Source of the DNA: Verrucomicrobiota bacterium | GTDB lineage: Bacteria > Verrucomicrobiota > Lentisphaeria > Victivallales > UBA1829 | DNA: 39,839 nucleotides | NCBI GenBank assembly: GCA_022703965.1 | Contig: JAKJHH010000007.1 | Span: forward strand, 1 to 39,839 | Direction: 5' to 3' | Part shown: positions 2,800 through 36,878 of the stretch, piece by piece | Layout: the number at the start of each line of letters is the position of its first letter | Numbering within the stretch: position 1 is the stretch's first letter | Notes under the pieces: model-generated | What the model was told of the DNA's origin: nothing | The model's input: only the letters and a program-made list of their open reading frames with translations | Database searches by the model: none | Program-made: the position numbers and the translations under genes

Positions 2800-4650
2800 T
2801 TATCTTTTCAAAAAAGTTCCCGCAGTAAGCAGAGCCTGAACGAAGTCTGCCCCTGCCTTTCCCTTGTTTTCTCCCTCAAGGAATGCCGGAACAGCGGTTC
2901 CGATCTGTGCTCCGTCAAGGATTCTGTCGAAACCAGTGGCTCCTCCGGCGCATATCGACATCACGGCATCCTTCAGCTCTTTCTGATTCCGCAATGCGTG
3001 CTCTCTCGACGGCCAGGTTCTTTCCTGCCAACGCGGAATTTCCTTTTCCGGAAAAATTCGCCTTTTCACATAGCCTGATAACTGATAAAAAGTCTGCTCG
3101 GTTCTGCTTGCTGTAACCGGAAACTTTGTATTGGCGCTCGGCAGTGCAGCCAAAGCGGGATCAAGAATTTTAAGCGCCGCTTTTTCTATTTTTCCGTAAA
3201 ATCTCTGTTCAAGCGGCAGGGACAGATAGAAGTCGAATATGCGGTTGTCGAAGGATACTGTTCTCTGTTCGGCATAAGTCGCTATCGACGCATGATTCGG
3301 ATAACTGTAATGGCGCGATATATGATGGAAACTCAAATATTCCCAGAGATCATAAGGATCGCTTGTCCACTGTTTTCCAATATTTATAATTTCGCTCACC
3401 GAATCTCTCTGGAAGCTTTTCAGATGCTCCTTCATTTCCGGCTTGATGAAGTTCCATATATCAGTCTGTTTTGTGTTTCTGTACGGAGCATTCGCAATAT
3501 AATATCCGGCAAGGTCTTCCGGAAGTTCGGCTATGGTTCTGAAGTAAGTTTTCCTGCCCATGAAACTATGTGAGTGTCCCGGTATATACATGCCCTGAAA
3601 CATATAATCAAAGCCGTGTCCATGAAAACAGACATCCGCATGTTTTTTCACAGTATCGGCAAAGCCCAGAAAGAGACCGTGATCGAAGTTATACATGCCG
3701 CCGATTATACTTGCGGAAGCCCTGAAAATCTGTGAATAATGGTCGTATTCAAGTTCAAGTCCGACGTGCGGAGCGCCTTTGGTCTCTGCAATTTTTTTTG
3801 CGGTAAGATACTCGTTGTTTTCTCCGAGTGCGGTAGTGAAACAAGTCGGCACCGTGTCTCTGAAGGACGCAAGAACCGAGCGCGAGTCCATGCCTCCGCT
3901 GAGGAAGTGGCCAAGACGCGGTGAATCGCTGCTCTTTTGTCTTACGGATTCTATCATAAGCCCCGCGAGTATTTCGGCATGTTTCTTGAGTGAAAGACGG
4001 CTCTTTTCATAATTTCTTGACCAGTAGCGTCTTATTGAGACTTTTCCTCCGTTAATCTCCATTATGGAGGCATCGGGAAGGAAATTTACATTTTCGGCGT
4101 AAGTTTTTGTGCCTAGTATGCGCTGAAGCCAGAGAAATTCAAAAATAGCCTCGGAAGAAACCTTCAGATCGCCTTTTTCCTTGAGCAGATCCCAGATAGT
4201 CGAGAAGTACGGAGTTCCGTAGAAAACTCCCTCACTTTGTGCATAGTAGAATGGTATTGACGTAAAACGGTCGTTTACAATGCTGAGGGTTCCTGATTGC
4301 TTGTCGAAGAGAAAAATCAGAAATTCACCGTTGATGGACGCTATTTTGCTGTCAGACGGAACTCCTTCAGCCGCAAAAAGGTTCAATACGGCTTCCCGGT
4401 TGATTACAGTATCTACAATGGGACTTCCCATTACGGAGATCAGATATTTGTCCGTTTCTTTGAAAAGCGGAGCGGGAAGCACTCCTCCTGCTATTATAGA
4501 AAATTTAAGCTCTGGAGACAGTGATTCTTTATTCAGTTCAGCTTTGCCGTAGTTCGAGGGCAGGAGCGTAGAGGCGGTGTCTCTTTTTTCAAGAGCCGCC
4601 ATAAAAAACGGAATACTGAACTCTGCCTTGAATTTTTCCATAAAATCCAT
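2800..4650 (-). CDS. Asparagine-synthase-like amidotransferase lacking the N-terminal cysteine
   Basis: Class-B asparagine-synthase relative that would activate a carboxylate with ATP and form an amide. The synthetase half has the PP-loop SGGMDSR at about residues 251-257. The N-terminal half resembles the glutaminase fold (INGEFLIFLFD, then NDRFTSIPFYY), but the chain does not begin Met-Cys, so the usual catalytic Cys2 is absent and ammonia or another amine would have to be used. This is typical of asparagine-synthase homologues in polysaccharide and natural-product clusters. I chose ATG 4650 over an in-frame TTG at 4653; ATG 4641 is also possible and no strong ribosome site decides. It is the first gene of the carbamoyltransferase-glycosyltransferase operon, with a 28-base gap to the next gene. 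Confidence 0.82.
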   Translation of the reverse strand: MDFMEKFKAEFSIPFFMAALEKRDTASTLLPSNYGKAELNKESLSPELKFSIIAGGVLPAPLFKETDKYLISVMGSPIVDTVINREAVLNLFAAEGVPSDSKIASINGEFLIFLFDKQSGTLSIVNDRFTSIPFYYAQSEGVFYGTPYFSTIWDLLKEKGDLKVSSEAIFEFLWLQRILGTKTYAENVNFLPDASIMEINGGKVSIRRYWSRNYEKSRLSLKKHAEILAGLMIESVRQKSSDSPRLGHFLSGGMDSRSVLASFRDTVPTCFTTALGENNEYLTAKKIAETKGAPHVGLELEYDHYSQIFRASASIIGGMYNFDHGLFLGFADTVKKHADVCFHGHGFDYMFQGMYIPGHSHSFMGRKTYFRTIAELPEDLAGYYIANAPYRNTKQTDIWNFIKPEMKEHLKSFQRDSVSEIINIGKQWTSDPYDLWEYLSFHHISRHYSYPNHASIATYAEQRTVSFDNRIFDFYLSLPLEQRFYGKIEKAALKILDPALAALPSANTKFPVTASRTEQTFYQLSGYVKRRIFPEKEIPRWQERTWPSREHALRNQKELKDAVMSICAGGATGFDRILDGAQIGTAVPAFLEGENKGKAGADFVQALLTAGTFLKR

Positions 4651-4830
4651 CAAAAATAAAGTCTTTTAATTTACTCCATTAAGCGCTAATCTCAAGCAGG
4701 ATAAGCCTATTCTTCTTAGCTACGCTCTCCTTTTTAAAACAAAACTCACATAAATGTCGTAAAAGCTGCTCTTTCTGGGGCTTTTCCGTTTGACGGTCAT
4801 CCGATTTGTAAATGCGGAAGGATTTCTGAA

Positions 4831-6006
4831 ATGGACAATAAAAATTCAATAAAGCTTGAACAGAGCGGAGAACTCCTGAAGTCCTGGATTAATTTTACCG
4901 GGACAAAAATTACGGCTCCGTTTATAAACCGTCTGCTATGCAGCGCCGACGAAGGCGTTTCCTCGGATCAGGCGGCGCTTTTCCAGACAATACTCGAAAA
5001 AGAACCGGTCATTGCCGCGCACATTCAGACGCGAATCTCGGCTGTCATGGCGTGCGATTTCTCCATCGAATCTGAAGACCGTGGGCTTGCCCTGAAACTT
5101 GAAGCTATTCTGCGCAAAGCCGGAATTCAGTCGCTCATGCGTCATCTTCTCGATGCCATTGTAACAGGCTATTCAGGCTCGGCGACAATATGGGGAGAAG
5201 GCGGCGCTTTTATCAGAAAGTTCCAGCATATTCATCCCTCAAACTGGATCTTTGACGATAACGGAGATGTATTGCTCTTTACTCGCAACGGACTTTCTGT
5301 TCCGCTCAAATCATATCCGGAAAACCAGTTCATTTTCCATACTCACCTTTTGAAACCGGGACTGCCCTCGAAGGGAGGACTTCTCAGAACGCTTGTCTGG
5401 CTATACTTCTTCAAACATTACGCAATGCGCGACAGAGCCAGATACATCGAGAAATTCGGCGTTCCTTTCATGATGGCGAAAATCCGCCGCGACGAATTCG
5501 AAGACAAGGCGCTCCGTGAAAACATCCTCTCTTCACTCGCCCGGGCCGGAAGCGACGGGGCCGGAGTCATTACCTCCGACTCCTCTCTTGAGATCATCAA
5601 TGCCTCGTCCTCCGGCCCGGACACTCAGGAATGGCTCGATTACATTGATTCAGTTTATGCTCTTGTGATTCTCGGACAGACGGCTTCAAGCTCGGGAGCT
5701 TCAGGATTCAGCAAAGGACAGATTCAGGAGAATGTCCGCCAGGATATTCTGGAATCGGACTGCCGCAGCCTCATGGAGACTCTTGACAATCAGCTCCTTG
5801 CCCCGCTTGAATTCTACCTTACGGGCTCAAAAGGAAAATGCCGCATCAAGCTCGATTTTCAGGTTTCTGAAGACCTGCGCGAAAAGGCGGAAATCGTGAA
5901 AATCCTTGCCGAAAGCGGATATAAAGCGGACAGAAACTGGGTGGCAAAAACATTTTCTGTCCCTCTCGAAGATGAAAACAACAACAGTGACGGAGATAAT
6001 GAATGA
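4831..6006 (+). CDS. Mu gp29-like phage portal protein (DUF935)
   Basis: The portal forms the ring at one vertex of the capsid through which DNA passes and on which head assembly starts. The 391-residue product has the DUF935/Mu gp29 pattern: an N-terminal stretch with LEKEPVIAAHIQTRISAV, then HPSNWIFDD, FIFHTHL, and the region around YFFKHYAMRDRARYIEKFG-V-PF. It is somewhat shorter than Mu gp29 itself, mainly at the C-terminus. ATG 4831 follows an AAGGA ribosome site at good spacing. It starts the head cassette, and the stop overlaps the next start as ATGA. No terminase gene precedes it, unlike a normal Mu-like order, because the upstream gene is a divergent sugar-modification gene. Confidence 0.88.
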   Translation: MDNKNSIKLEQSGELLKSWINFTGTKITAPFINRLLCSADEGVSSDQAALFQTILEKEPVIAAHIQTRISAVMACDFSIESEDRGLALKLEAILRKAGIQSLMRHLLDAIVTGYSGSATIWGEGGAFIRKFQHIHPSNWIFDDNGDVLLFTRNGLSVPLKSYPENQFIFHTHLLKPGLPSKGGLLRTLVWLYFFKHYAMRDRARYIEKFGVPFMMAKIRRDEFEDKALRENILSSLARAGSDGAGVITSDSSLEIINASSSGPDTQEWLDYIDSVYALVILGQTASSSGASGFSKGQIQENVRQDILESDCRSLMETLDNQLLAPLEFYLTGSKGKCRIKLDFQVSEDLREKAEIVKILAESGYKADRNWVAKTFSVPLEDENNNSDGDNE

Positions 6007-7034
6007 AAACTGAACGCATAGCCTTTTTCAACGGACTCGAATGCTTTTCCGAAAACAAAAGACAGGCTCGTGAGCTTCCTTCCGAGTTCATGATCATACG
6101 CTTCGGCATCAACAAATACACAAAGGACGGACATCAGGACGAATTTAATTTCACGCAGAACGATGCCGATGCCGTAATCACTGAATTCGAGTCCAGAGGC
6201 CGTGACCTCGTCATCGACTATGAACATCAGACCTTGCGCGGCTCTCAGGCTCCGGCGGCAGGATGGATAAAACGTCTTTTCAAGAAGGACGACGGTCTCT
6301 ACGGCGAGCTCAAATACTGGACGGAACAGGCAGCGGAATACCTGAAAAAAGGTGAATACAGATATTTCTCTCCGGTGATCCAGTTTTCCAGACGCGGAAA
6401 AACAGTAACAGCTATCCACTCGGTGGCGCTCACGAATCATCCTGCGATGCACTTTAATCCGGCTCTCGCAGCCGACGACAGCCTCGAAGTTGATCCGTCA
6501 TGCCCGCCCTCAAACATAAACGAAACGGAGTTTCAAATGAAAAGAATCTTTGAACTGCTCGGTCTTCAGGAGTTCTCCGACAAGACCAGCCCGGAGGCGC
6601 TTTCAAAAGCAGCCGACAAAGTCGCTGAACTTTGCAGGCTCGCCGAAGAAGGCGGGAATTTTCTCAACAAACATGCCTGTAAATCATTCGATGATCTTGA
6701 GGCTAAGATTTCTTCTCTTCCTTCAGAAGAAACATTGAAGGCTCTTGAGCTGGAAATCACAAAACGTGATGCTGAATCAGCAGTCGCAGTCGGATTTTCA
6801 GACGGAAAGCTTCAGGAATCATTGCGTGAATGGGCAAGAGGCTTTGCCGAAAAGGATCTTGCAGGGTTCAAATCATGGCTTGAAAAAGCCCCTGTGATCG
6901 TGCCGCTCAATTCAAATATTGAGCAGAGGAATCCTCTGGACGATACAGAAGCAAAGCTTTCGGAAACCGAGCTCAAAATTATGAGACTTCTTGGCCTTTC
7001 CGATGAAAAAATCAAAGAAATAAATTCAAAATAA
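6003..7034 (+). CDS. Mu I-like prohead protease with C-terminal scaffold
   Basis: Self-cleaving protease that processes the scaffold during procapsid maturation. The 343-residue protein shows the Mu-like I family pattern: RDLVIDYEHQTL with a catalytic-type histidine, APAAGWIKRL, KKGEYRYFSPVIQF, and a second histidine segment ending LTNHPAMHFNPAL. After about residue 178 it changes to a helical, charged scaffold-like region starting MKRIFELLGL. It begins in a four-base ATGA overlap with the portal gene, so translation is probably coupled. Protease-scaffold fusions of this type are known in Mu, where the scaffold is also made separately from an internal start. Confidence 0.86.
   Translation: MKTERIAFFNGLECFSENKRQARELPSEFMIIRFGINKYTKDGHQDEFNFTQNDADAVITEFESRGRDLVIDYEHQTLRGSQAPAAGWIKRLFKKDDGLYGELKYWTEQAAEYLKKGEYRYFSPVIQFSRRGKTVTAIHSVALTNHPAMHFNPALAADDSLEVDPSCPPSNINETEFQMKRIFELLGLQEFSDKTSPEALSKAADKVAELCRLAEEGGNFLNKHACKSFDDLEAKISSLPSEETLKALELEITKRDAESAVAVGFSDGKLQESLREWARGFAEKDLAGFKSWLEKAPVIVPLNSNIEQRNPLDDTEAKLSETELKIMRLLGLSDEKIKEINSK
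6537..7034 (+). CDS. Candidate nested scaffold protein (Mu Z-like) from an internal start
   Basis: An in-frame ATG at 6537 (codon 179 of the protease gene) is preceded by ACGGAG six bases upstream, a good ribosome site inside coding sequence. The resulting 165-residue product starts MKRIFELLGLQEFSDKTSPE, the typical beginning of free-standing Mu-type scaffold proteins, and is rich in helix-forming charged residues such as EALSKAADKVAELCRLAEE. In Mu, scaffold Z is produced from the 3' part of gene I in the same way. The internal site and domain boundary coincide here, which is the main support; expression is inferred. Confidence 0.6.
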   Translation: MKRIFELLGLQEFSDKTSPEALSKAADKVAELCRLAEEGGNFLNKHACKSFDDLEAKISSLPSEETLKALELEITKRDAESAVAVGFSDGKLQESLREWARGFAEKDLAGFKSWLEKAPVIVPLNSNIEQRNPLDDTEAKLSETELKIMRLLGLSDEKIKEINSK

Positions 7035-7046
7035 AGGAGACTTGAA

Positions 7047-7463
7047 ATGTCAGCACTGACTACAAACAGAGACACCAAGGAAAGAGTTCCGGCTTTCCGC
7101 AGATACCTTGTTACTCCGGGCGAAATCATGTATGCAGGCGGCATCGCCGCGCTCAATACTTCGACTGGAAAAATCGAAATGGCATCCGATAAAGCTTCGC
7201 TCAAAGTCATCGGACGCTCTGAGCAGTATGTCGACAACAGCGAAGGCAGAAATCCCCTCTGCGAAGCCAAGGCAGGCTGCTTCCTCTTTGCCAACTCTGC
7301 TGCTCATCCTGTGACTGTCGCCTCAATCGGAGCAAAATGTTATGTTGAGGACGATCAGACCGTTTCCAGCAGCGGCGGAACAAACAATGTCGTTGCCGGA
7401 GTCGTCTTCGATGTCACCGAGGCGGGCGTCTGGGTCGAAATTCAGCCTTACATGTCAATCTAA
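7047..7463 (+). CDS. Small capsid decoration/cement-like protein
   Basis: A 138-residue beta-rich protein between the protease/scaffold and major capsid genes, the place where Mu-like and related phages encode head decoration or stabilisation proteins. Visible features are a short polar N-terminus (MSALTTNRDTKERVPAF) and a Gly/Val-rich body with VTPGEIMYAGGIAALN, ASIGAKCYVEDDQTV and a final VAGVVFDVTEAGVWVEIQP, similar in layout to DUF2190-type proteins. The ATG is preceded by AAAGGAG. The function rests on position and general sequence character; no catalytic motif is present. Confidence 0.62.
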   Translation: MSALTTNRDTKERVPAFRRYLVTPGEIMYAGGIAALNTSTGKIEMASDKASLKVIGRSEQYVDNSEGRNPLCEAKAGCFLFANSAAHPVTVASIGAKCYVEDDQTVSSSGGTNNVVAGVVFDVTEAGVWVEIQPYMSI

Positions 7464-7486
7464 AAATAATAGAAGGAGATTTATAA

Positions 7487-8395
7487 ATGGATATCAACAG
7501 AAAAAATATCGAGACACTTTTCAAGGGCTTTGACGCAAGTTTCAAGGACGCCTTCACTCTGGCTCCCGATTCATGGAAGAAGTTTGCAATGACGGTTCAG
7601 TCCGGAACAGCCTCAAACATCTATCCTTTCATTGAGCAGTTCGGCGGAATGCGCGAATGGACAGGCGACCGTCAGATCAAGAATATTTCCTCAATGAAAC
7701 TCGAAATCATAAACCGCAGCTTCGAGGATACCGTCGCTGTAAAGCGAAACGACATCGAAGACGACCAGGTCGGCATATACAGCGTTCTGATCTCACAGAT
7801 GGGACTCAATGCCGCGAAGATCTGGCAGGAACTCGCAGTGTCGGCTCTTCTTTCAGATGCCGCTGTCTGGGCGGACGGCGCCGCATTCTTCGGAACAAGC
7901 CGCAAGTATGGCGAACATGCTGTGAGCAACCTGAGCGAAGCCGCTCTTTCTCAGGATTCCTACAAGGCGGCAAGACAGGCGATGATGGAGTACAAATCTC
8001 ACAGCGGCAAAGCTCTCGGAGTCGTTCCCAATCTGCTTATCGTAGGCTCCAAGAACGAAGCCGCCGCTTTCGGCATAGTCAAGGATTCCCTTGCTGTTGC
8101 CGGTGTCAGCGGCAGAGCAGGATCAACCGAGAACCCCTGGTTCGGCACGGCGGATTACATCGTTCTTCCCGAGCTCTCGGGCGATTACGAGGATCTCTGG
8201 TTCCTTGCGGCTTCTTCAGGCGTTCTCAAGCCGCTTGTCGTTCAGCAGAGAAAACAGCCCGTGCTTACAAGGCTCGATTCTGACAACGATGAAAATGTCT
8301 TCATGCGCAACGAGTACATCTATGGAACCGAGGCAAGAGGCGAAGCCTTCCTCGCCTTCCCGCACCTGATTTACAAGGGTGGTTCGGCAGCATAA
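7487..8395 (+). CDS. Mu gpT-like major head (capsid) protein
   Basis: Major capsid protein that builds the icosahedral shell. The 302-residue product has the features of the Mu-like gpT family: an N-terminal ININ-type helix (IETLFKGFDASFKDAF), YPFIEQFGGMREWTGDRQIKN, the strand RSFEDTVAVKRNDIEDDQVGIY, ELAVSALL with the following WADGAAFFGTS, and a C-terminal NEYIYGTEARGEAFLAFPHL. Length equals that of the Mu family. AGGAG lies shortly before the ATG. A strong terminator follows it immediately, so the capsid gene would be the last on the upstream transcript. The reading frame is intact with no sign of decay. Confidence 0.92.
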   Translation: MDINRKNIETLFKGFDASFKDAFTLAPDSWKKFAMTVQSGTASNIYPFIEQFGGMREWTGDRQIKNISSMKLEIINRSFEDTVAVKRNDIEDDQVGIYSVLISQMGLNAAKIWQELAVSALLSDAAVWADGAAFFGTSRKYGEHAVSNLSEAALSQDSYKAARQAMMEYKSHSGKALGVVPNLLIVGSKNEAAAFGIVKDSLAVAGVSGRAGSTENPWFGTADYIVLPELSGDYEDLWFLAASSGVLKPLVVQQRKQPVLTRLDSDNDENVFMRNEYIYGTEARGEAFLAFPHLIYKGGSAA

Positions 8396-8406
8396 AGAAC
8401 TGCGTG

Positions 8407-8435
8407 AGCCGCCGCCTCTAAAGCGGCGGCTTTTT
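8407..8435 (+). terminator. Rho-independent terminator after the major capsid gene
   Basis: A perfect eight-base GC stem (GCCGCCGC at 8408-8415 with GCGGCGGC at 8423-8430) plus one A-T pair closes a seven-base loop and is followed by TTTTT. It sits 11 bases after the capsid stop codon. It would let the head structural genes be made in excess over the connector genes downstream, which then rely on read-through or an unseen promoter. Confidence 0.85.
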
Positions 8436-8460
8436 AAACTCTCAAAAAAAGGACTTGGAC

Positions 8461-8883
8461 ATGAGCAATTACATTTCAGCTCAGGATATAAGCGACAGAA
8501 TGGGACAGTCCCGCATTGACGCACTATGCGCAAATTCCGGTATTTCCAGCGCAAACATGCTTGCGAAGGCCTCGGAAAACGCCGCTTCTCTTATTGACGG
8601 CTATCTGTCTTCGGCATACGAACTACCTCTTTCCGCTGTCCCGGCGATGCTGCGGAATATTGCGGTTGATCTTGCCGAATACGAACTTTATAAACTTTCC
8701 TCCAGCCCGTCCATACCGGAAAAGATAAAGGATTCCTGCAAGGATGCCGTTCTTTTTCTGGAAAAGCTTGCCGAGGGCAGTATCAGGCTGGATGAAAGCA
8801 TATCGCTACGTAAAGAAATAAATCCTGTTCTGCTCGTTTCTGCGGATTCGCTTATGGATGCTGAAAGCATGAAAGGATTCTGA
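8461..8883 (+). CDS. Mu gp36-like protein (DUF1320)
   Basis: Probable head-tail connector (head completion) protein of the DUF1320/gp36 family. The 140-residue product starts MSNYISAQDISDRMGQSRID, the family N-terminus, followed by a helical segment with ASLIDGYLSSAYELPL, then IAVDLAEYELYKL and a C-terminal helix with KDAVLFLEKLAEG. ATG 8461 is preferred over the upstream in-frame TTG 8455 because AAAAGGA at about 8447-8453 gives normal spacing to it. It comes first after the capsid terminator and is followed two bases on by the gp37-like gene. The match is good across the whole length. Confidence 0.82.
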   Translation: MSNYISAQDISDRMGQSRIDALCANSGISSANMLAKASENAASLIDGYLSSAYELPLSAVPAMLRNIAVDLAEYELYKLSSSPSIPEKIKDSCKDAVLFLEKLAEGSIRLDESISLRKEINPVLLVSADSLMDAESMKGF

Positions 8884-8885
8884 AA

Positions 8886-9293
8886 ATGCCTTTGACAGAT
8901 TATGTTGAATCTCTCGAAAATCTGCTGGATTTCGCAGTTCTGCGTCTTAAAAGCTACAACGACTGGAATGTGTCGAAGTTTCCCTCAACGGACATAAAGA
9001 AAATTTTCGAGTATATGCCTGATCTGCGTTGTCCTGCCGCGCTGGTTTCATTCGAGTCCGAAGCATATGCGGAAAATCCGCGTGCGGAAATCAGAATCGT
9101 TGTGACTGTGCTGGCGGACATGCTTTCAGATTCAGGAGCGAAAAGCGGAAGAACAATACTGCGCAAGGCCATCGAACTGCTTGACGGACAGGCTTACGGC
9201 GATGCCGTTTTCCGTGCGCTTTCAGCCTCGTTCAGCGATTGCGGTGCTTCATGTGCCGCCTATAAACTTACAATCAAAGTAAGCGACAGGTGA
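8886..9293 (+). CDS. Mu gp37-like protein (DUF1834)
   Basis: A 135-residue protein that follows the gp36-like gene as in Mu, where gp37 acts at the head-tail junction. It has an N-terminal helix (LTDYVESLENLLDFAVLRL), a PAALVSFESEAYAE-type beta strand followed by RAEIRIVVTVLAD, and a helix with GRTILRKAIELLDG, matching the general layout of DUF1834 connector/tail-terminator-like proteins. The assignment relies on both layout and order. It begins two bases after the preceding stop and is followed four bases later by the next start, so it is part of one translation unit. Confidence 0.68.
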   Translation: MPLTDYVESLENLLDFAVLRLKSYNDWNVSKFPSTDIKKIFEYMPDLRCPAALVSFESEAYAENPRAEIRIVVTVLADMLSDSGAKSGRTILRKAIELLDGQAYGDAVFRALSASFSDCGASCAAYKLTIKVSDR

Positions 9294-9297
9294 ATTT

Positions 9298-9615
9298 ATG
9301 CGTCTTCGTTTTGTTTCCGGAAGCGATGTTTTTGAGTTTGAGGCGGATGATTCTTCTTTCAAGGAGGAGAAAACTCCGCTTATAAATTCAATTTACGGAA
9401 CTGATATTTCCTTCGGTATGCTTCTGAGTTTTTCGTGCAGATATATTCCGGATTCCGCAAGCTCAATTCTTATCGATAAAGTTTCAGGTGAAGGCAGCGG
9501 AAAATATGCCGTCTATAAGGATTCCGAGCTTCTATGCGAAAACGCTCTTCTGGATATCACTGTTTCAGGGACAGATGTTCTTGAGCTTATTTTAAGCTGG
9601 AAAGGAGTACTCTGA
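9298..9615 (+). CDS. Unrecognised small phage-cassette protein
   Basis: I do not recognise this 105-residue protein. It is acidic and beta-rich, starting MRLRFVSGSDVFEFEADDSS and ending in VLELILSWKGVL, with no signal peptide or membrane segment. It is translationally linked to the gp37-like gene upstream (four-base gap) and to the next frame (TGATG one-base overlap), so it belongs to the head cassette. In a full Mu-like genome this position would lead into tail genes, so it may be a connector or an accessory head protein. The reading frame looks authentic because spacing and composition match its neighbours. Confidence 0.55.
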   Translation: MRLRFVSGSDVFEFEADDSSFKEEKTPLINSIYGTDISFGMLLSFSCRYIPDSASSILIDKVSGEGSGKYAVYKDSELLCENALLDITVSGTDVLELILSWKGVL

Positions 9616-9929
9616 TGTCAACAGTAAGATCATTTGACTCTCTCAGGCTCGGAACTGTAATGATAGATTCATCCGTTTTCGTTCCGGGCAGCGGAGTTCT
9701 GAAAAATTCGGCGTCGGACACTGTCTATCACGGAGAAAAACCGATACTTGTCAGGCGCAGAAATTATCTTGAATTCCACTGCAAAGTTAGCGGAAAATAT
9801 GAATTTGAGGATGAAATCGCTACTGCTACAATATATTCTTCCGCCTTGACTCTCTACAGCTTCAGCGGAAGAGTTACATCTGTTTACAATCAGCTCGAAG
9901 ATATCACTTACATTACGGTCAGGGGTTGA
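9615..9929 (+). CDS. Unrecognised last protein of the phage cassette
   Basis: I do not recognise this 104-residue product. It is polar and beta-rich, with SGKYEFEDEIATATIYSS and a final DITYITVRG, and lacks any hydrophobic segment. Its start overlaps the preceding stop by one base. Its 3' end overlaps by 11 bases the 3' end of the convergent substrate-binding-protein gene, so the phage region stops exactly at a host gene. That pattern suggests deletion or recombination removed whatever followed. The C-terminus may therefore be unnatural, although the frame ends in a proper stop codon. Confidence 0.5.
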   Translation: MSTVRSFDSLRLGTVMIDSSVFVPGSGVLKNSASDTVYHGEKPILVRRRNYLEFHCKVSGKYEFEDEIATATIYSSALTLYSFSGRVTSVYNQLEDITYITVRG

Positions 9930-11043
9930 CGTTTGTAAGGTATCTTGTGGCGAATTGCCCTTCGGGGGTCTTGTAGATTTCCAGAATGACAGCCGACTTT
10001 ATCATGCGGTTGTCCTCACCTATGCTGGCGTTTCCTGTTACGAGCTCAAGATTTTTGATTGAGGAAAGACCTTTTCTGATCTCTTCGCCTGTCAGCCCCT
10101 GCTTCATGGCTTCTGTAAGCATTGTAATCGAGTCATAACCAAGAGCCTCGAAAGTGCCGACTTTTCCGTTATAATTCTTCTCGCAGTAAGCAAGAAAATC
10201 CTGAACTGCCTTGCGTTTGTCTTCACGCGAAAAAGCTCCGACAATAAAGCAGCCTTCGATATTATCGCCTGAACCGTTGATGACCGGATCGTTGTCCCAG
10301 CCGTCAGCTCCGCAGAATTTAGCCTTGAGACCCATTACTTTAGCCTGTTTGATTATCATGGGGACTTCAGGATGGTATCCAGGGATAAAGACAAATTCGG
10401 CTCCACTTGAAGCTATTTTCTTGAGCTGCGCTCCGAAATCAGTATCTTTCTGCTGATAAAATTCCTCTGCGAGAATCTTTCCTCCCGCCGCAGTATAAGC
10501 TTCTTTAAAACTCTTTGAAAGTCCCTTCGAATAATCGCTGTTTCTGTCGACGATCAGAGCGGCATTCATGACTTTACGTGTTTTTGCAAGATAGTTGGCT
10601 ATGACAACGCCCTGAAAGGAATCATCGATACAGGTTCTGAACATGTACGGATTGCGTTGAGTAACCTTGTCGTTGGTTGCGGTAGGAGTGATGACAGGCA
10701 TTTTGAATTCGACGGCATCGCGTCTTACCGCAAGAGAAGTTGTACTGATGACAGGGCCGAGGATTGCAACGACCTTATCTGAACCGGCAAGTTTTTTGAA
10801 GGCATTCCGGCTCTGCGTCGCATCACCGTTGTTGTCCTCGACGATGAGCTCGATTTTCTTTCCGTTGAATCCGCCTTCGGCATTGATCTTGTCGACATGC
10901 AGCTTTATACCGTTGAAGGTGAGAGTCCCGTAGGCGGCAAGACTGCCGGAGAAGGGCAGAATCACGCCTACTTTTACGGTTTCCTGAGCTGAAAGTGCAA
11001 AAGAAACAAGTAATGCCGCTGTTGCCAGAATCAGTTTTTTCAT
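9919..11043 (-). CDS. Branched-chain amino acid-type ABC transporter substrate-binding protein
   Basis: Periplasmic binding protein of the LivJ/LivK (type I, Peripla_BP_6) family that captures amino acids or related small compounds for an ABC importer. The 374 residues begin with a signal peptide (MKKLILATAALLVSFALSAQ, likely cleaved after LSA). Family features follow: TVKVGVILPFSGSLAAYG, INAEGGFNGKKIELIVEDN, VVAILGPVISTTSLA and MPVITPTATND. No permease or ATPase genes of the Liv type are nearby in the window, so partners must be elsewhere. It is the third gene of a minus-strand operon after the HIT protein and trpA genes. The ligand is not predictable from the sequence. Confidence 0.9.
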   Translation of the reverse strand: MKKLILATAALLVSFALSAQETVKVGVILPFSGSLAAYGTLTFNGIKLHVDKINAEGGFNGKKIELIVEDNNGDATQSRNAFKKLAGSDKVVAILGPVISTTSLAVRRDAVEFKMPVITPTATNDKVTQRNPYMFRTCIDDSFQGVVIANYLAKTRKVMNAALIVDRNSDYSKGLSKSFKEAYTAAGGKILAEEFYQQKDTDFGAQLKKIASSGAEFVFIPGYHPEVPMIIKQAKVMGLKAKFCGADGWDNDPVINGSGDNIEGCFIVGAFSREDKRKAVQDFLAYCEKNYNGKVGTFEALGYDSITMLTEAMKQGLTGEEIRKGLSSIKNLELVTGNASIGEDNRMIKSAVILEIYKTPEGQFATRYLTNVNP

Positions 11044-22696: not shown

Positions 22697-23320
22697 ATGA
22701 AATTACAGTTGCGACAGAAAATAACTGGTGATCTGTTTGATTACGCACAGTTGACCGATGTTCTGTCAGGATATGGCAATGTCCGGACGAAAATCGGGAG
22801 GTTGCTGGCGTCCGGTGAAGTCATTCGGATTAAGAAAGGGTTTTATACCTTCCCTGAATATCTGCGCAAGGCACCGTTGAACTCCTGCGCCATTGCTAAT
22901 ATGATATATGGGCCGAGTTATGTAAGTTGCGATTATGCACTTGCTTATTACGGGATGATCCCGGAACGGGTCGAAGCAGTTACATCCATGACGTTGGGTC
23001 GTCCCAGAGAGTTTTCCACCCCGGTTGGCAATTTTATTTACCTGCAACGGAATGCGGCAGATTATTCGATCGGTATTGACGGAATGGATTCTGCAGGCGG
23101 TAATTTTCTGATTGCAGCCAAAGAAAAGGCTATATACGACAAGGCATTGACGGATAAACGTTTTGACGGCACTGCTGTGGAAAACTATCTGTTTGAAGAT
23201 CTGAGGCTGGAACCTGATAGTCTGGCTGATTTGAATCGAACAGTGCTTTCAGAATTACTGGAGCACGCAAGAGGGCGAATGAGCGGCTTGCTAAAGTTTT
23301 TAATGGAGAATTCGCGATGA
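22697..23320 (+). CDS. AbiEi-like antitoxin (type IV toxin-antitoxin)
   Basis: Antitoxin and autorepressor of an AbiE system. The 207-residue protein has an N-terminal winged-helix-like region with LLASGEVIRIKKGFYTFPE and a larger domain with YGPSYVSCDYALAYYGMIPE, both typical of AbiEi/COG5340-type proteins. In type IV systems it acts by counteracting the toxin's effect rather than binding it. The start of the toxin gene overlaps the stop by four bases (ATGA). Codon use has more CGG, TTG and GGG-style triplets than the flanking metabolic genes, suggesting acquisition from outside. Confidence 0.82.
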   Translation: MKLQLRQKITGDLFDYAQLTDVLSGYGNVRTKIGRLLASGEVIRIKKGFYTFPEYLRKAPLNSCAIANMIYGPSYVSCDYALAYYGMIPERVEAVTSMTLGRPREFSTPVGNFIYLQRNAADYSIGIDGMDSAGGNFLIAAKEKAIYDKALTDKRFDGTAVENYLFEDLRLEPDSLADLNRTVLSELLEHARGRMSGLLKFLMENSR

Positions 23321-24183
23321 ATATGGTAATTCAGCAGATGCTTGAGCGCTATGAATGTCGCAATGAGGACGATTATATTAACGCGCTGAGGGAAATCATG
23401 CAGGAATTAGCCTTGCAGGGCTTATGGCGCGGGAAATTCTTTGAACACGCCGCTTTTTACGGAGGGACGGCACTGCGGATCCTTTACGGACTGAATCGGG
23501 GTTCCGAAGATTTGGATTTTTCGTTGCTGCATCCAGACCAAGAATTCCGTTTGTCAAGTTATGCCGAGGCTTTACGTCGGGAACTGGCAAGTTTTGGCTT
23601 TTCGGTCGAATTTGTGAGTAAAGAAAAAAATCGTGAATTCAATATTGATTCCGCTTTTTTGAAGACAAACACTAAGATGCAGTTGATTTCGATTGGATTG
23701 CCGGCTGCACTGACGGATCGGATTCATTCCCGGAAAGACTTGAAAATCAAACTGGAAATAGACATTGATCCGCCGCCGGGATTCCAGACGGAGATCAAAA
23801 CGTTGCTACGCCCTATTCCGCATACCGTACGGGTTTATGTCACTCCGGATTTGCTGGCTGGAAAATTGCATGCGGTTCTTTGTCGTAAATGGCGCAACCG
23901 TTCCAAAGGACGGGATTGGTATGATATGGTCTGGTATGCCGCCCATTATCCGCAAGTCAATCTTTCCCATCTGGAGCAACGGATGCGACAATCAGGCGAT
24001 TATCCTGATGGACAAGCGTTGACCTTGTCTCGCTTGCATAGCTTTCTGCTGGAGACAGTTGAAGGCTCTGATATTGAAATGCTGAAGCAGGATCTGCGTC
24101 CATTTATCCGTGATCAGCAGGAACTTGAACTGTGGAGCAAAGACTTTTTCCGGCAAATTGTAACACTTTTTGTCCCGGCATAA
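23317..24183 (+). CDS. AbiEii-like nucleotidyltransferase toxin
   Basis: Toxin half of the AbiE system, a predicted nucleotidyltransferase that in studied systems modifies nucleic-acid targets such as tRNA ends, causing growth arrest upon phage infection. The 288 residues show the DNA-polymerase-beta-like motif GGTALR (49-54) followed by SEDLDFSL, a third acidic segment in KLEIDIDPP, and the family region LLAGKLHAVLCRKWRNRSKG with RDWYD. The key residues look intact. It overlaps the antitoxin by four bases and shares its unusual codon use. The exact target cannot be deduced. Confidence 0.85.
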   Translation: MNMVIQQMLERYECRNEDDYINALREIMQELALQGLWRGKFFEHAAFYGGTALRILYGLNRGSEDLDFSLLHPDQEFRLSSYAEALRRELASFGFSVEFVSKEKNREFNIDSAFLKTNTKMQLISIGLPAALTDRIHSRKDLKIKLEIDIDPPPGFQTEIKTLLRPIPHTVRVYVTPDLLAGKLHAVLCRKWRNRSKGRDWYDMVWYAAHYPQVNLSHLEQRMRQSGDYPDGQALTLSRLHSFLLETVEGSDIEMLKQDLRPFIRDQQELELWSKDFFRQIVTLFVPA

Positions 24184-32134: not shown

Positions 32135-32195
32135 CGATCTATTGTTTTTTGAACTATTATTGGCTTTTTGACCAAATACAAAAAGGATATTGTTT

Positions 32196-33497
32196 ATGGA
32201 ATGGAAAGAAGAATGGAAAAAGCTTGCGGCGATAGTCGCGGTTTTTATACTTTGCTTTTATCTGCCTGTCGGCTACGAGAGATTTGACCATGCGCTGCTG
32301 GAGGCGTTTTATCTTGTAAAATGGTATGCCCGTGAACATGTACTTCTCTGCCTTATTCCGGCGTTTTTCATTGCCGGAGCAATTGGAGTTTTCATCAGCC
32401 AGGCTTCCGTAATGAAGTATCTTGGGCCGAAAGCCAATAAGTTTCTGGCCTATGGAGTTGCGGCGGTGTCGGGGACAATTCTGGCGGTCTGTTCGTGTAC
32501 AGTATTACCGCTTTTTGCCGGGATCTACCGAATGGGGGCGGGACTTGGCCCCGCCTGTGCATTTCTTTATTCAGGTCCGGCGATCAATGTTCTTGCAATC
32601 GCAATGACTGCGCGCATACTTGGAATCGAACTGGGAATTGCACGCGCTGTCGGCGCAATCGTATTCAGTATTGTCATTGGCGTAGCGATGCATCTGATCT
32701 TCCACAAGGAGGAAGAAGCCAAAGCCGCGGCACAGATGGAAATGCCTGAGCCTGATGTCAAACGTCCGCTATGGCAGACATCACTTTATTTTGCCTCGAT
32801 GGTCGGCATTCTGGTTTTCGCGAACTGGGGAAAATCAGACGATTCGGACGGGGTCTGGAATCTGATTCAAGCCTGGAAATGGCCGATTACTTCACTCTGC
32901 GCGCTCGCATTAGGAACTATGCTGATCAAGTGGTTTGAGGTCAAATCTTGGAAAGTCGCAGTCACTGCAATTCCGGTAATAATCTTAGCTTTGCTGTTTC
33001 CGGATATGCCGCTGCTTGCGTTTGCGGCCGGAACCATTGGATTGTCTGTTTTTACCAGCACGGATAAAGGAGAAAGCGGTGAATGGTTCCATTCCTCGTG
33101 GACTTTTGCGAAACAGATCCTGCCTCTGCTTCTTTTCGGCGTACTGATTGCGGGATTCCTGCTGGGACGCGTCGGTGAAGAAGGAATGATTCCCTCGGAA
33201 TGGGTGTCTGCGGCAGTGGGAGGCAACTCTTTTTCGGCAAACTTTTCTGCAGCTTTCTTCGGAGCGTTCATGTATTTTGCAACCTTGACTGAAGTGCCGA
33301 TTCTACAAGGCTTGATCGGAAACGGAATGGGACAGGGGCCCGCTCTCGCTCTCTTGCTTGCCGGTCCGGCTCTGAGCCTGCCCAATATGCTTGTGATCAG
33401 AAGTATCATGGGAACGAAAAAGACTGTAGTTTTTGTTTCGCTGGTCATCGTGATGGCCACATTTTGCGGCATGATTTTTGGAACATTCTGGGGTTAA
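32196..33497 (+). CDS. COG0701-type permease (arsenical efflux, ArsP-like)
   Basis: Inner-membrane transporter of the DUF318/COG0701 family with about ten predicted membrane segments over 433 residues. The conserved CSC motif is at C99 and C101 in LAVCSCTVLPLFAGIYRMGAG; a second repeat appears as the FGAFMYFATLTEVPILQGLIG segment. Family members include ArsP, which exports trivalent organoarsenicals such as methylarsenite and aromatic species, so the arsenic context points to export. ATG 32196 is used, with AAAGGA eight bases upstream; an in-frame TTG at 32190 is less likely. Followed by a small redox protein, as in other ars islands. Confidence 0.82.
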   Translation: MEWKEEWKKLAAIVAVFILCFYLPVGYERFDHALLEAFYLVKWYAREHVLLCLIPAFFIAGAIGVFISQASVMKYLGPKANKFLAYGVAAVSGTILAVCSCTVLPLFAGIYRMGAGLGPACAFLYSGPAINVLAIAMTARILGIELGIARAVGAIVFSIVIGVAMHLIFHKEEEAKAAAQMEMPEPDVKRPLWQTSLYFASMVGILVFANWGKSDDSDGVWNLIQAWKWPITSLCALALGTMLIKWFEVKSWKVAVTAIPVIILALLFPDMPLLAFAAGTIGLSVFTSTDKGESGEWFHSSWTFAKQILPLLLFGVLIAGFLLGRVGEEGMIPSEWVSAAVGGNSFSANFSAAFFGAFMYFATLTEVPILQGLIGNGMGQGPALALLLAGPALSLPNMLVIRSIMGTKKTVVFVSLVIVMATFCGMIFGTFWG

Positions 33498-33536
33498 TCC
33501 CAGTCTAATACTCAAAGAAAGAGAAGGAATTATAGC

Positions 33537-33767
33537 ATGAAAATTCAAATTCTGGGAACAGGTTGTCCGAAGTGCAAAACTCTGGCGGAAAACGCGGAAA
33601 AAGCAGCAAAAGAACTCGGCCTTGACTTTGAGCTTGAAAAAGTCACCGATATCAACAAAATCATGGCTTTCGGCGTGATGATGACTCCGGCTCTGGCACT
33701 TGACGGCAAAGTCAAGGCGGTCGGAAAGCTTTTAAATTCTGAAGACATTAAAAAACTTTTAGTATAA
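33537..33767 (+). CDS. Small redox-active disulfide protein (thioredoxin_3-type)
   Basis: A 76-residue glutaredoxin-fold protein that probably reduces a partner disulfide in the arsenic pathway. It has the family start MKIQILGTGCPKCKTLAENA with a CPKC motif (C10, C13) and the cis-proline region MMTPALALDGKV. This family is found next to COG0701 permeases in many arsenic and related islands. AGGAATT precedes the ATG. It probably supplies electrons to or senses metal for the neighbouring proteins, but the partner is not known. Confidence 0.85.
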   Translation: MKIQILGTGCPKCKTLAENAEKAAKELGLDFELEKVTDINKIMAFGVMMTPALALDGKVKAVGKLLNSEDIKKLLV

Positions 33768-33780
33768 AGGAGTTTTAACT

Positions 33781-34164
33781 ATGGATACTGCTCAAAAACC
33801 TTGTGCCTGCGGAAATGCTCCCAAACTTATATTTCCCTGTTCTGGTGCGGCCGATGCAGGAGCCGTTGCCGATCTTGCGGCTCGTAAACTCTCCAAAAAC
33901 GGCGATGGCAAAATGTTCTGTCTGGCCGGTATCGGCGGACGCGTGGATGGAATAATGAAATCCACAGAGGCCGCTGCAAAGATTCTGGCTATAGACGGAT
34001 GTGCTCTGCAATGCGCAAAAAAGACTCTGCTGGAAGCCGGATTTTCGGAATTTGAATATATCAATCTTTCTGAACTCGGCATGTGCAAGGGACAGACTGA
34101 AGCTGATGAATCGAACATCGCAAAAGTTGTAGCGCTTGCCAAAAGTAAACTGGCCTGTAAATAA
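33781..34164 (+). CDS. DGC-domain (putative zinc-binding) protein
   Basis: A 127-residue cysteine-rich protein of the DGC family: CACGNAPKLIFPCSGAADAG at the N-terminus, CLAGIGG, and the family signature IDGCALQCAKKTL. The cysteines suggest metal or arsenical binding. The domain's function is not established. In the ArsEFG system described for Shewanella (nitroarsenical reduction and efflux), small proteins lie next to arsF and arsG; this one could fill the ArsE position, but that is a guess from order. Separated by only 13 bases from the redox gene, with AAAGGAG before its start. Confidence 0.72.
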   Translation: MDTAQKPCACGNAPKLIFPCSGAADAGAVADLAARKLSKNGDGKMFCLAGIGGRVDGIMKSTEAAAKILAIDGCALQCAKKTLLEAGFSEFEYINLSELGMCKGQTEADESNIAKVVALAKSKLACK

Positions 34165-34176
34165 GGAGCCGCTTTC

Positions 34177-34647
34177 ATGATTATAAAATCTTTATTGCTC
34201 GTTGCTGCCTGTTTCATGACTTTCTCTTTGTCGGCTCAGTGCTGCGGGAAGAAAACGGTTGACGCTGATGTCCAGAAGAAAGAAACTCTCAATGCGGTCT
34301 CAGCTTCCGCAGAGACAAATCAGGCAAAGCTACCCAAGCTTGTTGATCTGGGTGCGAAAAAATGTATTCCCTGCAAAAAAATGGCTCCCATACTGGAAGA
34401 ATTGACTCTTGAATACAAAGGTATCATGGATGTTGAATTTATCGATGTATGGGAAAAGGAAAACGTAGCAAAGGCAAAGCAGTATGGCATTCAATCAATT
34501 CCCACTCAGATTTTCTTTGATGCCAACGGCAAGGAAGTCTGGCGACATGAGGGATACATCTCAAAGGAAGATATTCTGTCAAAGTGGAAAGAACTGGGCT
34601 CCGATATGGAAAAAATGAAGAAAGAAAAAGAACAGAAAAGTAAATGA
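34177..34647 (+). CDS. Exported thioredoxin-like protein
   Basis: A 156-residue periplasmic thioredoxin with a signal peptide (ending SLSA) and the mature start QCCGKK. Its fold shows VDLGAKKCIPCKKMAP (CIPC active site), VDVWEKENVAKAKQYG-like strands and the cis-proline segment YGIQSIPTQIFFD. The preceding cysteine pair is unusual; Q before the first Cys does not satisfy a lipobox, so it is probably not lipidated. It likely reduces disulfides of exported partners of the ars operon. ATGA overlap with the ArsF-like gene indicates coupled translation. Confidence 0.8.
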   Translation: MIIKSLLLVAACFMTFSLSAQCCGKKTVDADVQKKETLNAVSASAETNQAKLPKLVDLGAKKCIPCKKMAPILEELTLEYKGIMDVEFIDVWEKENVAKAKQYGIQSIPTQIFFDANGKEVWRHEGYISKEDILSKWKELGSDMEKMKKEKEQKSK

Positions 34648-35120
34648 GCAAAGATAAACAGATTGCCTGGATAAAAGCTTTCTTACTGGCCTTTGTCTTC
34701 GTCAGCATAGGGTTTTCTCTGGGACGCCATAGCGTTAAGTCAGGATCGACGGGATCGCTGCCGCCGTCAGGCGGCAAAAGCTCGGTACAGGTTTACTATC
34801 TGCATTCGACCTTTCGCTGCACGACCTGCAATACCATCGAGAAAATGACGAAAGCCTTCCTGGATCGTCAATATAAGGCTGATCTGGCGTCCGGTGATAT
34901 GCTCTTCAACGAAATTGATTTTCAGGCTGATGAGGACTTGGCGAAAAAGTTCGGGGTTGTCGCCAGCTGCATCGTTGTCGCGGCAATAAAAGACGGTAAG
35001 ATTGTCGATTTCCGACGTCTTGACGAGGTCTGGACGCTGATGAAAGATCCTCCGGCTTTCGATAAATATATTAATGACGCGATTGATGCCATGAAACAGA
35101 AAAACAGAGGAACAGAATGA
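34644..35120 (+). CDS. arsF: ArsF-like nitroarsenical reductase subunit
   Basis: A 158-residue membrane-anchored protein: an N-terminal hydrophobic helix (AWIKAFLLAFVFVSIGFSLG), then a thioredoxin-like domain with VQVYYLHSTFRCTTCNTIEK that has CTTC. This is the pattern annotated as ArsF family in the arsEFG system, in which ArsE and ArsF are needed to reduce nitro groups on aromatic arsenicals in Shewanella. The DsbD-type partner gene follows with a four-base overlap, so electrons may be passed between the two. Activity here is inferred from family and context. Confidence 0.72.
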   Translation: MSKDKQIAWIKAFLLAFVFVSIGFSLGRHSVKSGSTGSLPPSGGKSSVQVYYLHSTFRCTTCNTIEKMTKAFLDRQYKADLASGDMLFNEIDFQADEDLAKKFGVVASCIVVAAIKDGKIVDFRRLDEVWTLMKDPPAFDKYINDAIDAMKQKNRGTE

Positions 35121-35809
35121 GCTGGTTTATAATCGGATCTGCCCTCTGGCTTGGTATTCTGACTGCGATCAGTCCATGTCCGCTGGCAACTAATATAGCC
35201 GCGATTTCATTCATCGGACGTCAGCTCGGCAATGAGCGCGGAGTTCTGCTTTCAGGCTTGCTCTATACAGCCGGACGCGTTCTGGCTTACGTGTTTCTGG
35301 GAATCGGGATTGCCTCGGGTGTGATGGTGAGCGGAGAGCTCTCGCGTTTTTTACAGTTGTATATGAATGAAATTCTAGGTCCGGCACTTATTCTGCTGGG
35401 AATGATTCTCCTCGGAATGCTGGGTTCCGGAATGTCAATGAATTTGATCGGCCACGAAAAACTGCATAAACATGCGGAAAAAAAAGGATTGTCTCTGGCA
35501 TTGCCGATCGGCTTCGTCTTTGCTCTATCCTTTTGCCCTGTCTCCGCGGGTCTGTTTTTCGGAGCTTTGATTCCGCTGACGCTCAAGAGCGGCGGAGCCT
35601 TTCTTCTGCCGCTGATTTATGGTATTGGAACAGCACTGCCGGTGATCTTGTTTTCGTTTCTGATCGCCTTTGGAGGCGAATATCTTGGTAAAGCATTCAA
35701 CTGTCTGACAAAAATTGAAGTTTGGGTACGCCGGGTTGCCGGAATCATGTTTATCGTTGTCGGCATTTACTATTGCCTGATCCATATTTATCAAATCTGC
35801 TTATGGTGA
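35117..35809 (+). CDS. arsG: ArsG-like CcdA/DsbD-type membrane protein
   Basis: A 230-residue integral membrane protein with about six transmembrane helices. It matches the CcdA/DsbD family with ISPCPLATN at the N-terminus and FALSFCPVSAGLFFG later, the two helix cysteines that carry electrons across the membrane. In the arsEFG system the equivalent protein is reported as the efflux permease for trivalent aromatic arsenicals. A redox role (CcdA-like) for the exported thioredoxin and ArsF-like protein is equally consistent with the residues. It ends the first ars operon. Confidence 0.72.
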   Translation: MSWFIIGSALWLGILTAISPCPLATNIAAISFIGRQLGNERGVLLSGLLYTAGRVLAYVFLGIGIASGVMVSGELSRFLQLYMNEILGPALILLGMILLGMLGSGMSMNLIGHEKLHKHAEKKGLSLALPIGFVFALSFCPVSAGLFFGALIPLTLKSGGAFLLPLIYGIGTALPVILFSFLIAFGGEYLGKAFNCLTKIEVWVRRVAGIMFIVVGIYYCLIHIYQICLW

Positions 35810-35972
35810 AAAAAAGGCGCAAGGTCTCTGCGTCGATGTATATCGGAAAAACCTTCATCACCACAAATCAATAACACATTATAATAGTCTAACAGTTTTA
35901 TAACAGAAATCCTGTTGCTCTGCTTTGAGCCTTATGCTTTGGTATTGCCGAAGATAAAGGAGGACATGAAAC
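35810..35972 (+). promoter_or_regulatory. Region between the two ars blocks with candidate -10
   Basis: The 163-base gap has TATAAT at 35880-35885, a consensus -10, with no good -35 at normal spacing. Nearby is a short hairpin AACAG/CTGTT around 35900-35914. It may drive the fused arsenate reductase gene, which has AAAGGAGGA just before its start. No clear terminator of the first block is visible. Confidence 0.4.
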
Positions 35973-36878
35973 ATGGCCGAAAAAATAAAAGTTCTTTTTG
36001 TTTGCAAGTACAACTCATGCCGTACTCAGATGGCAGAAGCATTTCTGAAAAAATACGGAGCGGATCGCTTTGAGGCGGAAAGCGCCGGACTCGAAACCGG
36101 TGATTTAAACCCTTATGCGATTGCCGTAATGGAGTCTAAGGGGCTCGATATCTCACACAACAAATCCAAGACGGTTTTCGAGCTCTTCAAGGAAGGACGC
36201 TATTATGACTACGTCATCAGCGTATGCAGTTACGATGATTCCGAATGTCCGGTATTTCCAGGCAGGACGATCAGAAAAAACTGGAACCTGCCCGATCCCG
36301 CAAGCTTCGATGGAACAGATGACGAAATCCTCGAAAAAACGGCTCTTCTTTGCAGTGATATAGAGCATCTGGTTCTGGAATTTATCGCAACCGCAAATCC
36401 GGCAGGCGAAATCTTTGCCGAATCAACACAGCGTTTTCGCAAGATGCCAAGACTGAAAGTGCTTTTTCTCTGCACCGGAAATTCCTGTCGCAGTCAGATG
36501 GCTGAAGGCTGGGCACGTTTCCTCAAGAACAATCAGATAGAAGCTTATTCAGCCGGAATTCGCGCTCAGGGACTCAATCCTAACGCTGTCAAAGTTATGG
36601 CCGAGGCCGGTGTTGATATCAGCAGACAGACCTCAAAAACTCTCGACGCTCTTTCAGGTATTACTTTTGACTATGTTGTGACGGTATGCGGACATGCTCA
36701 CGGAAGCTGTCCTGTTTTTCCCGGTGGTGTAAGAGTGCTTCATGTTCCTTTCGATGATCCGCCGCATCTTGCAGCAGACGCTAAGACTGAAGAGGAAGCC
36801 CTTTCGCATTACCGTCGAGTCCGCGATAAAATAAAAGAATTTGTGCTTAAAATGCCGGAAAATCTGACGGAAAGATAA
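35973..36878 (+). CDS. arsC: Tandem fused arsenate reductase (two LMW-PTPase/ArsC domains)
   Basis: One 301-residue chain containing two complete thioredoxin-coupled ArsC-type domains. The first spans about residues 5-145, with CKYNSCR (C11, R17) and redox cysteines C85 and C92. The second spans about 158-300, with CTGNSCR (C167, R173) and C239 and C246. All three cysteines needed for the arsenate-reduction cascade of this class are present in both halves. The halves differ: the first has the LPDPASF version, the second HVPFDDPP. A linker of about 12 residues joins them. Reduction of arsenate to arsenite is expected; whether both sites are active cannot be seen. Confidence 0.88.
   Translation: MAEKIKVLFVCKYNSCRTQMAEAFLKKYGADRFEAESAGLETGDLNPYAIAVMESKGLDISHNKSKTVFELFKEGRYYDYVISVCSYDDSECPVFPGRTIRKNWNLPDPASFDGTDDEILEKTALLCSDIEHLVLEFIATANPAGEIFAESTQRFRKMPRLKVLFLCTGNSCRSQMAEGWARFLKNNQIEAYSAGIRAQGLNPNAVKVMAEAGVDISRQTSKTLDALSGITFDYVVTVCGHAHGSCPVFPGGVRVLHVPFDDPPHLAADAKTEEEALSHYRRVRDKIKEFVLKMPENLTER

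Follow-up and report, generated by a model that had tools for sequence, protein, structure and literature searches.

The window analysed here, a stretch of 39,839 nucleotides from a Verrucomicrobiota bacterium (contig JAKJHH010000007.1 of assembly GCA_022703965.1; Lentisphaeria, Victivallales), carries a block of Mu-like phage head genes between positions 4831 and 9929. The block consists of eight complete open reading frames (ORFs), all on the plus strand, and an ORF check of the window detected no internal stop in any of them, in agreement with the intact eight-gene block reported in a preliminary description of this DNA. The first gene (4831..6006) encodes a Mu-like portal protein of 391 amino acids (PF06074, Portal_Mu, E=4.2e-71; clade A), which is 44-58% identical to its 12 relatives. 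It is followed by a head maturation protease of the Mu gpI type with a C-terminal scaffold region (6003..7034, 343 residues; PF10123, E=2.4e-61; phrog_328). By analogy with Mu, an in-frame ATG inside the protease gene, corresponding to Met179 (6537) and preceded by a modest CGGAG, could be the start of a putative nested scaffold protein (6537..7034, plus strand). The next three genes encode a decoration or virion structural protein (7047..7463, 138 residues; phrog_1731, E=2.8e-30), a major capsid protein similar to Mu gpT (7487..8395, 302 residues; PF10124, E=5.4e-66) and a Gp36-type head-tail adaptor (8455..8883, 142 residues; PF07030, E=2e-24; phrog_195). These Pfam and PHROG matches support the portal, protease, decoration-like, capsid and connector-like assignments made previously. 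The capsid protein is well conserved across the clade, with 53-64% identity and a mean column identity of 73%.

The last three genes, which we call h6 (8886..9293, 135 residues), h7 (9298..9615, 105 residues) and h8 (9615..9929, 104 residues), gave no significant match to a Pfam or PHROG family, and for h7 and h8 nothing was matched in PDB either. A profile of h6 matched a prophage protein found at the same position (96% probability). The AlphaFold model of h7 was too poor to use, and a fold search with the model of the beta-rich h8, for which the predicted local distance difference test score was 61, gave no match. Gene order, the h6 profile match and the beta-rich, low-confidence models suggest that, by position, h6 is a neck or tail-terminator protein and that h7 and h8 are tail-tube-type proteins.

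Two IMG/VR contigs represent the nearest phages: IMGVR_UViG_3300024054_000540 (loci L157 and L376; L157 below) and IMGVR_UViG_3300021255_000142 (L233 in genome G100; G100 below). In both, the genes for the large terminase (TerL), portal, protease, decoration protein, capsid, adaptor, h6, h7 and h8 stand in one row and in the window's order, with one extra gene after gp36 in L157. The L157 capsid protein is 51% identical, and the G100 TerL 47% identical, to that of the window's genome. Because h6, h7 and h8 occupy the neck and tail-tube positions in these phages, the block is not strictly head-only, and that earlier label has to be given up. The absence of MuF, which had also been pointed out, extends to the window's whole genome assembly. 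However, L157 has no MuF gene between portal and protease, and since MuF is already missing from this related phage, its absence from the block is no evidence of trimming. G100 is a circular phage of 41,956 bases with a 72-base end repeat (L379-L380), in which a long distance separates the MuF-like gene from the portal gene. The TerL gene of L157 (L157:3599-5797) was seen in an alignment to contain an intein-like insertion (CFVAGTLIETSGG...).

The window contains no terminase gene, as had been stated, but the genome does. A profile built from nine clade terminases detected an intact, single-copy TerL on another contig (G000:C333:4542-5816, 744 bits), where it is flanked by one PhoU-like and one chemotaxis-like gene. 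A PF17289 match (G000:C92, L121) was rejected as the TerL of this genome, as it belongs to a separate phage-like contig. The other clade genomes have one TerL each, away from the capsid genes, with the exceptions of G015, which has two copies, and G022 (56% complete), where the profile found none. All 17 of the 17 TerL sequences checked keep the catalytic motifs, that is, Walker A (GGSRSGKT or GGARSGKT), Walker B (LNEAT or INEAT) and the acidic nuclease residues, and the clade profile matches the solved large terminases 5OE8/5OEA. The clade TerLs are monophyletic and adjoin a viral set that includes L233. The order differs in f7, another family of the bacterial order: in G041 the portal, TerS (PF03592) and TerL genes are close together, in G048 TerS adjoins TerL, and the capsid genes are elsewhere.

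These results bear on the idea, raised in the preliminary description, that the genes form a domesticated capsid compartment without DNA, a shell in encapsulin-like use. Taken alone, the window would fit such a compartment, as it shows only shell, portal and connector genes. A DNA-free compartment would need neither a portal nor a terminase, yet both are conserved and co-diversify with the capsid, TerL with its catalytic residues, and we regard this explanation as highly improbable. Since the portal and a terminase with an intact catalytic apparatus are conserved along with the shell, selection must act on the packaging of DNA.

Other parts of the system are dispersed as well. Orthologues of h6 stand alone at separate loci in G003, G008, G016 and G041, and h7 and h8 form a pair at a further separate locus in G003, G008 and G016; in G008 the pair lies beside a RecO-like gene. 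In G008, about 111 kb of a single contig separates the cassette from h6, and TerL and h7-h8 are on other contigs. A Mu-type head holds about 40 kb, and the spacing in G008 is far beyond that. This arrangement is unlike that of the two IMG/VR contigs, which are contiguous viral genomes. The window's genome is the least dispersed of those examined, because its gp36-h6-h7-h8 order equals that of the two viral contigs. An apparent link of h6 to a gene cluster of genus g5 through a neighbour of 957 residues was dismissed, as the neighbour is UvrA and the cluster arose by chance. One could also envision a phage satellite, or another helper-dependent element, that borrows its tail and motor, and the partial set of structural genes would agree with this. 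No integration, transposition or replication gene was found in the window block, however, and the parts are unlinked, fixed, vertically inherited (see below) and accompanied by their own TerL. A satellite, another of the options offered earlier, is therefore very unlikely.

Upstream of the portal gene lies an element (4777..4796, plus strand) composed of a T-rich stretch, GGGGCTTTTCCG, and the sequence TTTGACGG (4789-4796), which agrees with the consensus TTTGACGC at 7/8 bases and is located 42 bp 5′ of the portal start codon. Nearly every scattered unit has a T-rich stretch with TTTGACGC 34-85 bp (median 43.5) 5′ of its start codon. Using curated starts and, as controls, other genes of >=120 amino acids in the same genomes, we found TTTGACG within 110 bp upstream of 34/36 unit heads and of 7/405 control genes (Fisher p=2e-41), a value that overstates independence because units of different genomes are related by descent. 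Different units of a single genome, for example the portal, TerL, h6 and h7 units of G008, all carry the element without sharing an ancestor. The element is absent from the g5 and g6 cassettes, and G100, in which the row of genes continues after h8 into a tape measure and fibre-like genes, lacks it at these genes. The TTTGACGC word is not rare in itself (10 observed in the window, 7 expected), so that only its position is informative. In G000, G001 and G003, an initial comparison of shared words fell short of significance, as the element was truncated or shifted by the start codons chosen for these genomes; the count with curated starts takes its place.

Three of the seven control matches look like further members of the system: an h6 orthologue in G018, a zinc-ribbon/helix-turn-helix (HTH) gene of 166 amino acids that is preceded by two element copies in G007, and a fibre-like gene of 556 amino acids beside the capsid genes of G041. 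When approximately 346 kb of G008 was sampled regardless of gene content, one further convincing site was found, again with two element copies, before a 163-residue orthologue of the HTH gene of G007, G041 and phage L157. The HTH is weakly similar, below the cut-off, to HTH_20 and to sigma-70 region 4. The zinc-ribbon/HTH gene found in these relatives is perhaps the regulator of the element-bearing units. In phage L157 the element precedes the TerS, portal, protease, adaptor and h7 genes, and it is therefore probably an inherited part of a late promoter. Its absence from the 3′ ends of units (2/26 carried it) and its presence before internal genes of L157 argue against an insertion scar. For any genome of this group, the element offers a direct route to a list of all genes of the system. 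Two kinds of repeat were noticed in L386:6850-7120, L400:5000-5120 and the contig ends of G008 (L382, L383, L387, L390, L392, L394-L396, L398, L399): one, present at many contig ends, holds an inverted TTTGACGC pair, GCGTCAAAATTGGTTTGACGC, and another, intergenic one combines a T-rich TTTGACGC sequence with a hairpin. A second TerL lineage is represented by L127 (G015), L193 (G002) and L194 (G017), and directly upstream of the G015 member is an HTH gene with weak similarity to the candidate regulator.

We mapped 40 loci, and their genes were identified by a hidden Markov model search of all ORFs and by a codon-usage gene caller. Portal_Mu is present, nearly always in single copy, in 31/36 genomes of the window's own family. 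The orthologous cassettes form one clade of 13 genomes, again in single copy, from two families of Victivallales/Lentisphaeria metagenome-assembled genomes (MAGs), several of them from yak, sheep or buffalo gut. In the portal tree, this clade of the window and 12 other cassettes has a support of 100/100 and a long stem, and its rows cluster by genus; its members are the window, five further genera of the same family, and G041 and G048 from f7. Outside the clade are genuine Mu prophages in which a gene occupies the MuF position (L035, L044, L047, L049, L054, L055) and the portals of g5, g6, g10 and G002.

The tree of portal, major capsid protein and TerL matches the host RpoB tree for the 12 genomes that have all of these genes, with no supported conflict. 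Common to both are the groups (G000,(G041,G048)), (G003,G008), (G019,G011) and (G018,G024,(G001,G010)), G000 being the window's genome, which sits beside f7 in either tree. G015 falls near the last two groups, and a few forks of the RpoB tree are not resolved. Pairwise identities of the portal, capsid and TerL set correlated with those of RpoB (Mantel r = 0.94, 0.87 and 0.91), and 0/5000 permutations reached these values. RpoB identity goes down to 69% in the tree set, and the association must therefore be old. A single in-frame TAG was seen in rpoB of G015 (L336), which may reflect assembly error, decay or suppression. For close pairs, dN/dS of the portal, decoration, capsid, adaptor, TerL and h6 genes was 0.02-0.38, mostly 0.05-0.2, and that of h7 was 0.31; the protease pair G001/G024 was left out, and several pairs were saturated. 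Selection is thus purifying; it is not relaxed, an outcome that the preliminary description had named as a refutation. These comparisons indicate that the block is vertically inherited and has been retained since before the split of the two bacterial families.

The possibility of a recently trimmed or decaying Mu-like prophage, with head genes that are intact by chance, has to be weighed against this result. The same family does harbour several kinds of Mu-like prophage (L035, L044, L047), and a trimmed prophage would explain a block without integration and replication genes. The preliminary description was also right that host genes flank the block on both sides. A gene that reads as asparagine-synthase-like (2800..4653, minus strand, 617 residues) begins 178 bases from the left end on the opposite strand, and on the right h8 overlaps by 11 bases (9919-9929) a convergent gene that reads as an ABC substrate-binding protein (9919..11043, minus strand, 374 residues). 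Beyond the latter are trpA-like and HIT-like genes, and we place all of these neighbours outside the system. The third-position G+C of the cassette (0.54) is close to that of the flanks (0.51). The search of relatives for the same block with the same boundaries, proposed earlier, showed that the block recurs in 13 genomes and that none of the neighbouring gene families is shared between the window's cassette and the others, which lie in differing host contexts. In no relative examined was a full prophage present at this place, so that the other refuting outcome named earlier was not found either. What is found is also not what defines a Mu-like prophage, as there is no contiguous genome, MuF is missing from the assembly and TerL is unlinked. 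Same-clade cassettes whose tree is congruent with that of their hosts in two families, purifying selection, the retention of an unlinked TerL and the shared regulatory element all speak against trimming, which we consider barely credible.

We think it likely that these genes represent the head module of a phage that the host lineage has domesticated and passed on vertically as a scattered, co-regulated DNA-packaging system, and that this system is most likely a viriform similar to a gene transfer agent (GTA). The dispersal, fixation and co-diversification of its parts argue against a prophage, a remnant or a satellite, and a component of a split GTA is strongly favoured among the options offered earlier. 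In the proposed scheme, a signal would activate a late regulator of phage origin, for which the zinc-ribbon/HTH protein of the relatives is a candidate, and promoters with the T-rich stretch and TTTGACGC would fire at several unlinked loci. The protease/scaffold, capsid, decoration protein and portal would assemble a prohead, into which TerL encoded elsewhere would pump DNA through the portal. The genes probably extend over much more DNA than fits into a single head, and most of the cargo would then come from other parts of the host genome. The products Gp36, h6, h7 and h8 would close the head and begin the tail, and the particles would then exit the cell and deliver DNA to other cells.

Several points weigh against this interpretation. 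All of the genomes are MAGs, and the window's genome is 78% complete and divided into 380 contigs. An in-frame TAG, due to MAG error, decay or suppression, is present in the capsid gene of G003 (L023, near 11505) and in h8 of G016 (L321). Two genomes, G002 and G017, have a TerL without a detected clade capsid, and G015 has two TerLs. The particle proteins are not poorer in carbon than their prophage homologues and several are richer, a trend opposite to the low-carbon bias of alphaproteobacterial GTAs. The sequences directly show intact genes, an intact and unlinked TerL, dispersal, a common 5′ element, purifying selection and co-diversification with the host; particle formation, packaged content, the rest of the tail, the role of the regulator, release and delivery are deduced. 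Finally, h7-h8 was not detected in genera g2, g3 and g8, a weak negative, and a profile search of the clade genomes turned up neither a tape measure nor a baseplate gene, a negative that is also weak because the profile missed known prophages as well.

The last two results would be expected of a domesticated DNA-packaging head that is tailless, or nearly so, and has a use other than tail-mediated delivery, such as lysis with uptake by competence, storage or a decoy. Capsid, portal, adaptor and TerL are indeed the most widely detected parts in the clade. However, besides the weakness of these absence tests, h6 is kept in g1, g4, g9 and f7, and in g2 and g3 it was found through the upstream motif; h7-h8 is retained as a unit in three genera; and the capsid genes of f7 have fibre-like and chaperone-like neighbours, of which the fibre-like gene is preceded by the motif. 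A tailless head is thus unlikely, although less so than the compartment, satellite or prophage explanations. We are equally doubtful of a more far-reaching proposal, namely that the phage has dissolved into a host regulon in which each gene or small group has its own locus and a captured late promoter, giving a tailless DNA-packaging particle in some genera and a kind of viriform not yet described. The best reading remains a GTA-like viriform that is new to the phylum and unusually dispersed.

Parallel head cassettes were encountered in the same bacterial order. Genus g5 (L041, L133, L134, L135; also L037, L040, L042, L043, L045, L046, L060) has a second split Mu-like set, in which TerL, protease, decoration, capsid, adaptor and tail-like genes lie beside uvrA, and the portal gene and its upstream gene are at another locus; the portal is single copy in most of the genus, and the TTTGACGC element is absent. 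In genus g6 (L025, L031, L136), a head cassette without MuF or TerL lies between host genes, and in G005 TerL and its upstream gene are on another contig. Genus g30 of family f4 (L197, L198, L199, L200, L202, L203) has a head-and-motor cassette of different phage origin between host genes, in the order TerS, portal, possible scaffold, SU10-type capsid, two small genes and TerL, with no adjoining tail genes and with TerL in single copy in most f4 genomes. The split cassettes of g5, g6 and f4 suggest that the order has captured phage heads repeatedly. Elsewhere in the window, an adjacent pair (22697-24183) reads as an AbiE-type toxin-antitoxin system, with an antitoxin-like protein of 207 residues and a nucleotidyltransferase-like protein of 288 residues, and a group of permease, thioredoxin-like, cytochrome-c-biogenesis-like, arsenate-reductase-like and methyltransferase-like genes (32190-39444) reads as an arsenic/metal resistance cluster.

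Among named phages, the nearest capsid protein (37% identity) is that of Pseudomonas phage LPB1 (Casadabanvirus), one of the Mu-like siphophages of the B3/D3112 kind. Phages of this type have the portal, protease, decoration, capsid and adaptor genes in the window's order, but they are complete phages in which a gene for a MuF-type minor head protein and others separate portal from protease and a full tail module is present. Few lineages have GTAs whose genetic basis is known, and searches of an open-access library gave no paper on a GTA in Lentisphaerota or related Verrucomicrobia. If our interpretation is correct, the system extends the known GTAs to a further phylum and to an independent phage source (Mu/B3-like heads), and its dispersal is an extreme case that prophage and GTA finders, which look for clusters, would miss. 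GTAs have been defined by six features (PMC9662315). The three that sequence can settle were found here: caudoviricete-derived proteins, by similarity, for the portal, protease, capsid, adaptor and TerL; endogenization over multiple loci, with the cassette, TerL, h6 and h7-h8 apart; and vertical inheritance with co-diversification, as seen in the congruent trees and the Mantel test. The other features of the definition are a cargo of mostly random host DNA, a head too small to take up the agent's whole genome, on which the distances in G008 given above bear, and the transfer of the cargo into other cells. The GTA of Rhodobacter capsulatus (RcGTA, Rhodogtaviriformidae) has its genes at five loci (PMC9662315). 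Like RcGTA, the present system consists of phage-derived structural genes that are fixed in the host at several loci, inherited vertically and co-diversifying with it; unlike RcGTA, it has a Mu/B3-like portal, a gpT-type capsid and a Lentisphaerota host. Moreover, RcGTA has a main cluster of ~14 kb, whereas here the head, TerL, h6 and h7-h8 are separate in most genomes, each with a TTTGACGC element. The RcGTA activator GafA joins HTH and sigma-like parts (PMC6363796); its resemblance to the zinc-ribbon/HTH protein is one of analogy, not homology. The genome of the Brachyspira hyodysenteriae agent BhGTA/VSH-1 is likely spread over several loci, and its putative TerL clusters apart from those of phages (PMC9662315). 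The system described here resembles BhGTA in its dispersal over several loci and in a TerL that forms a group of its own, and differs from it in phylum and in its proteins.

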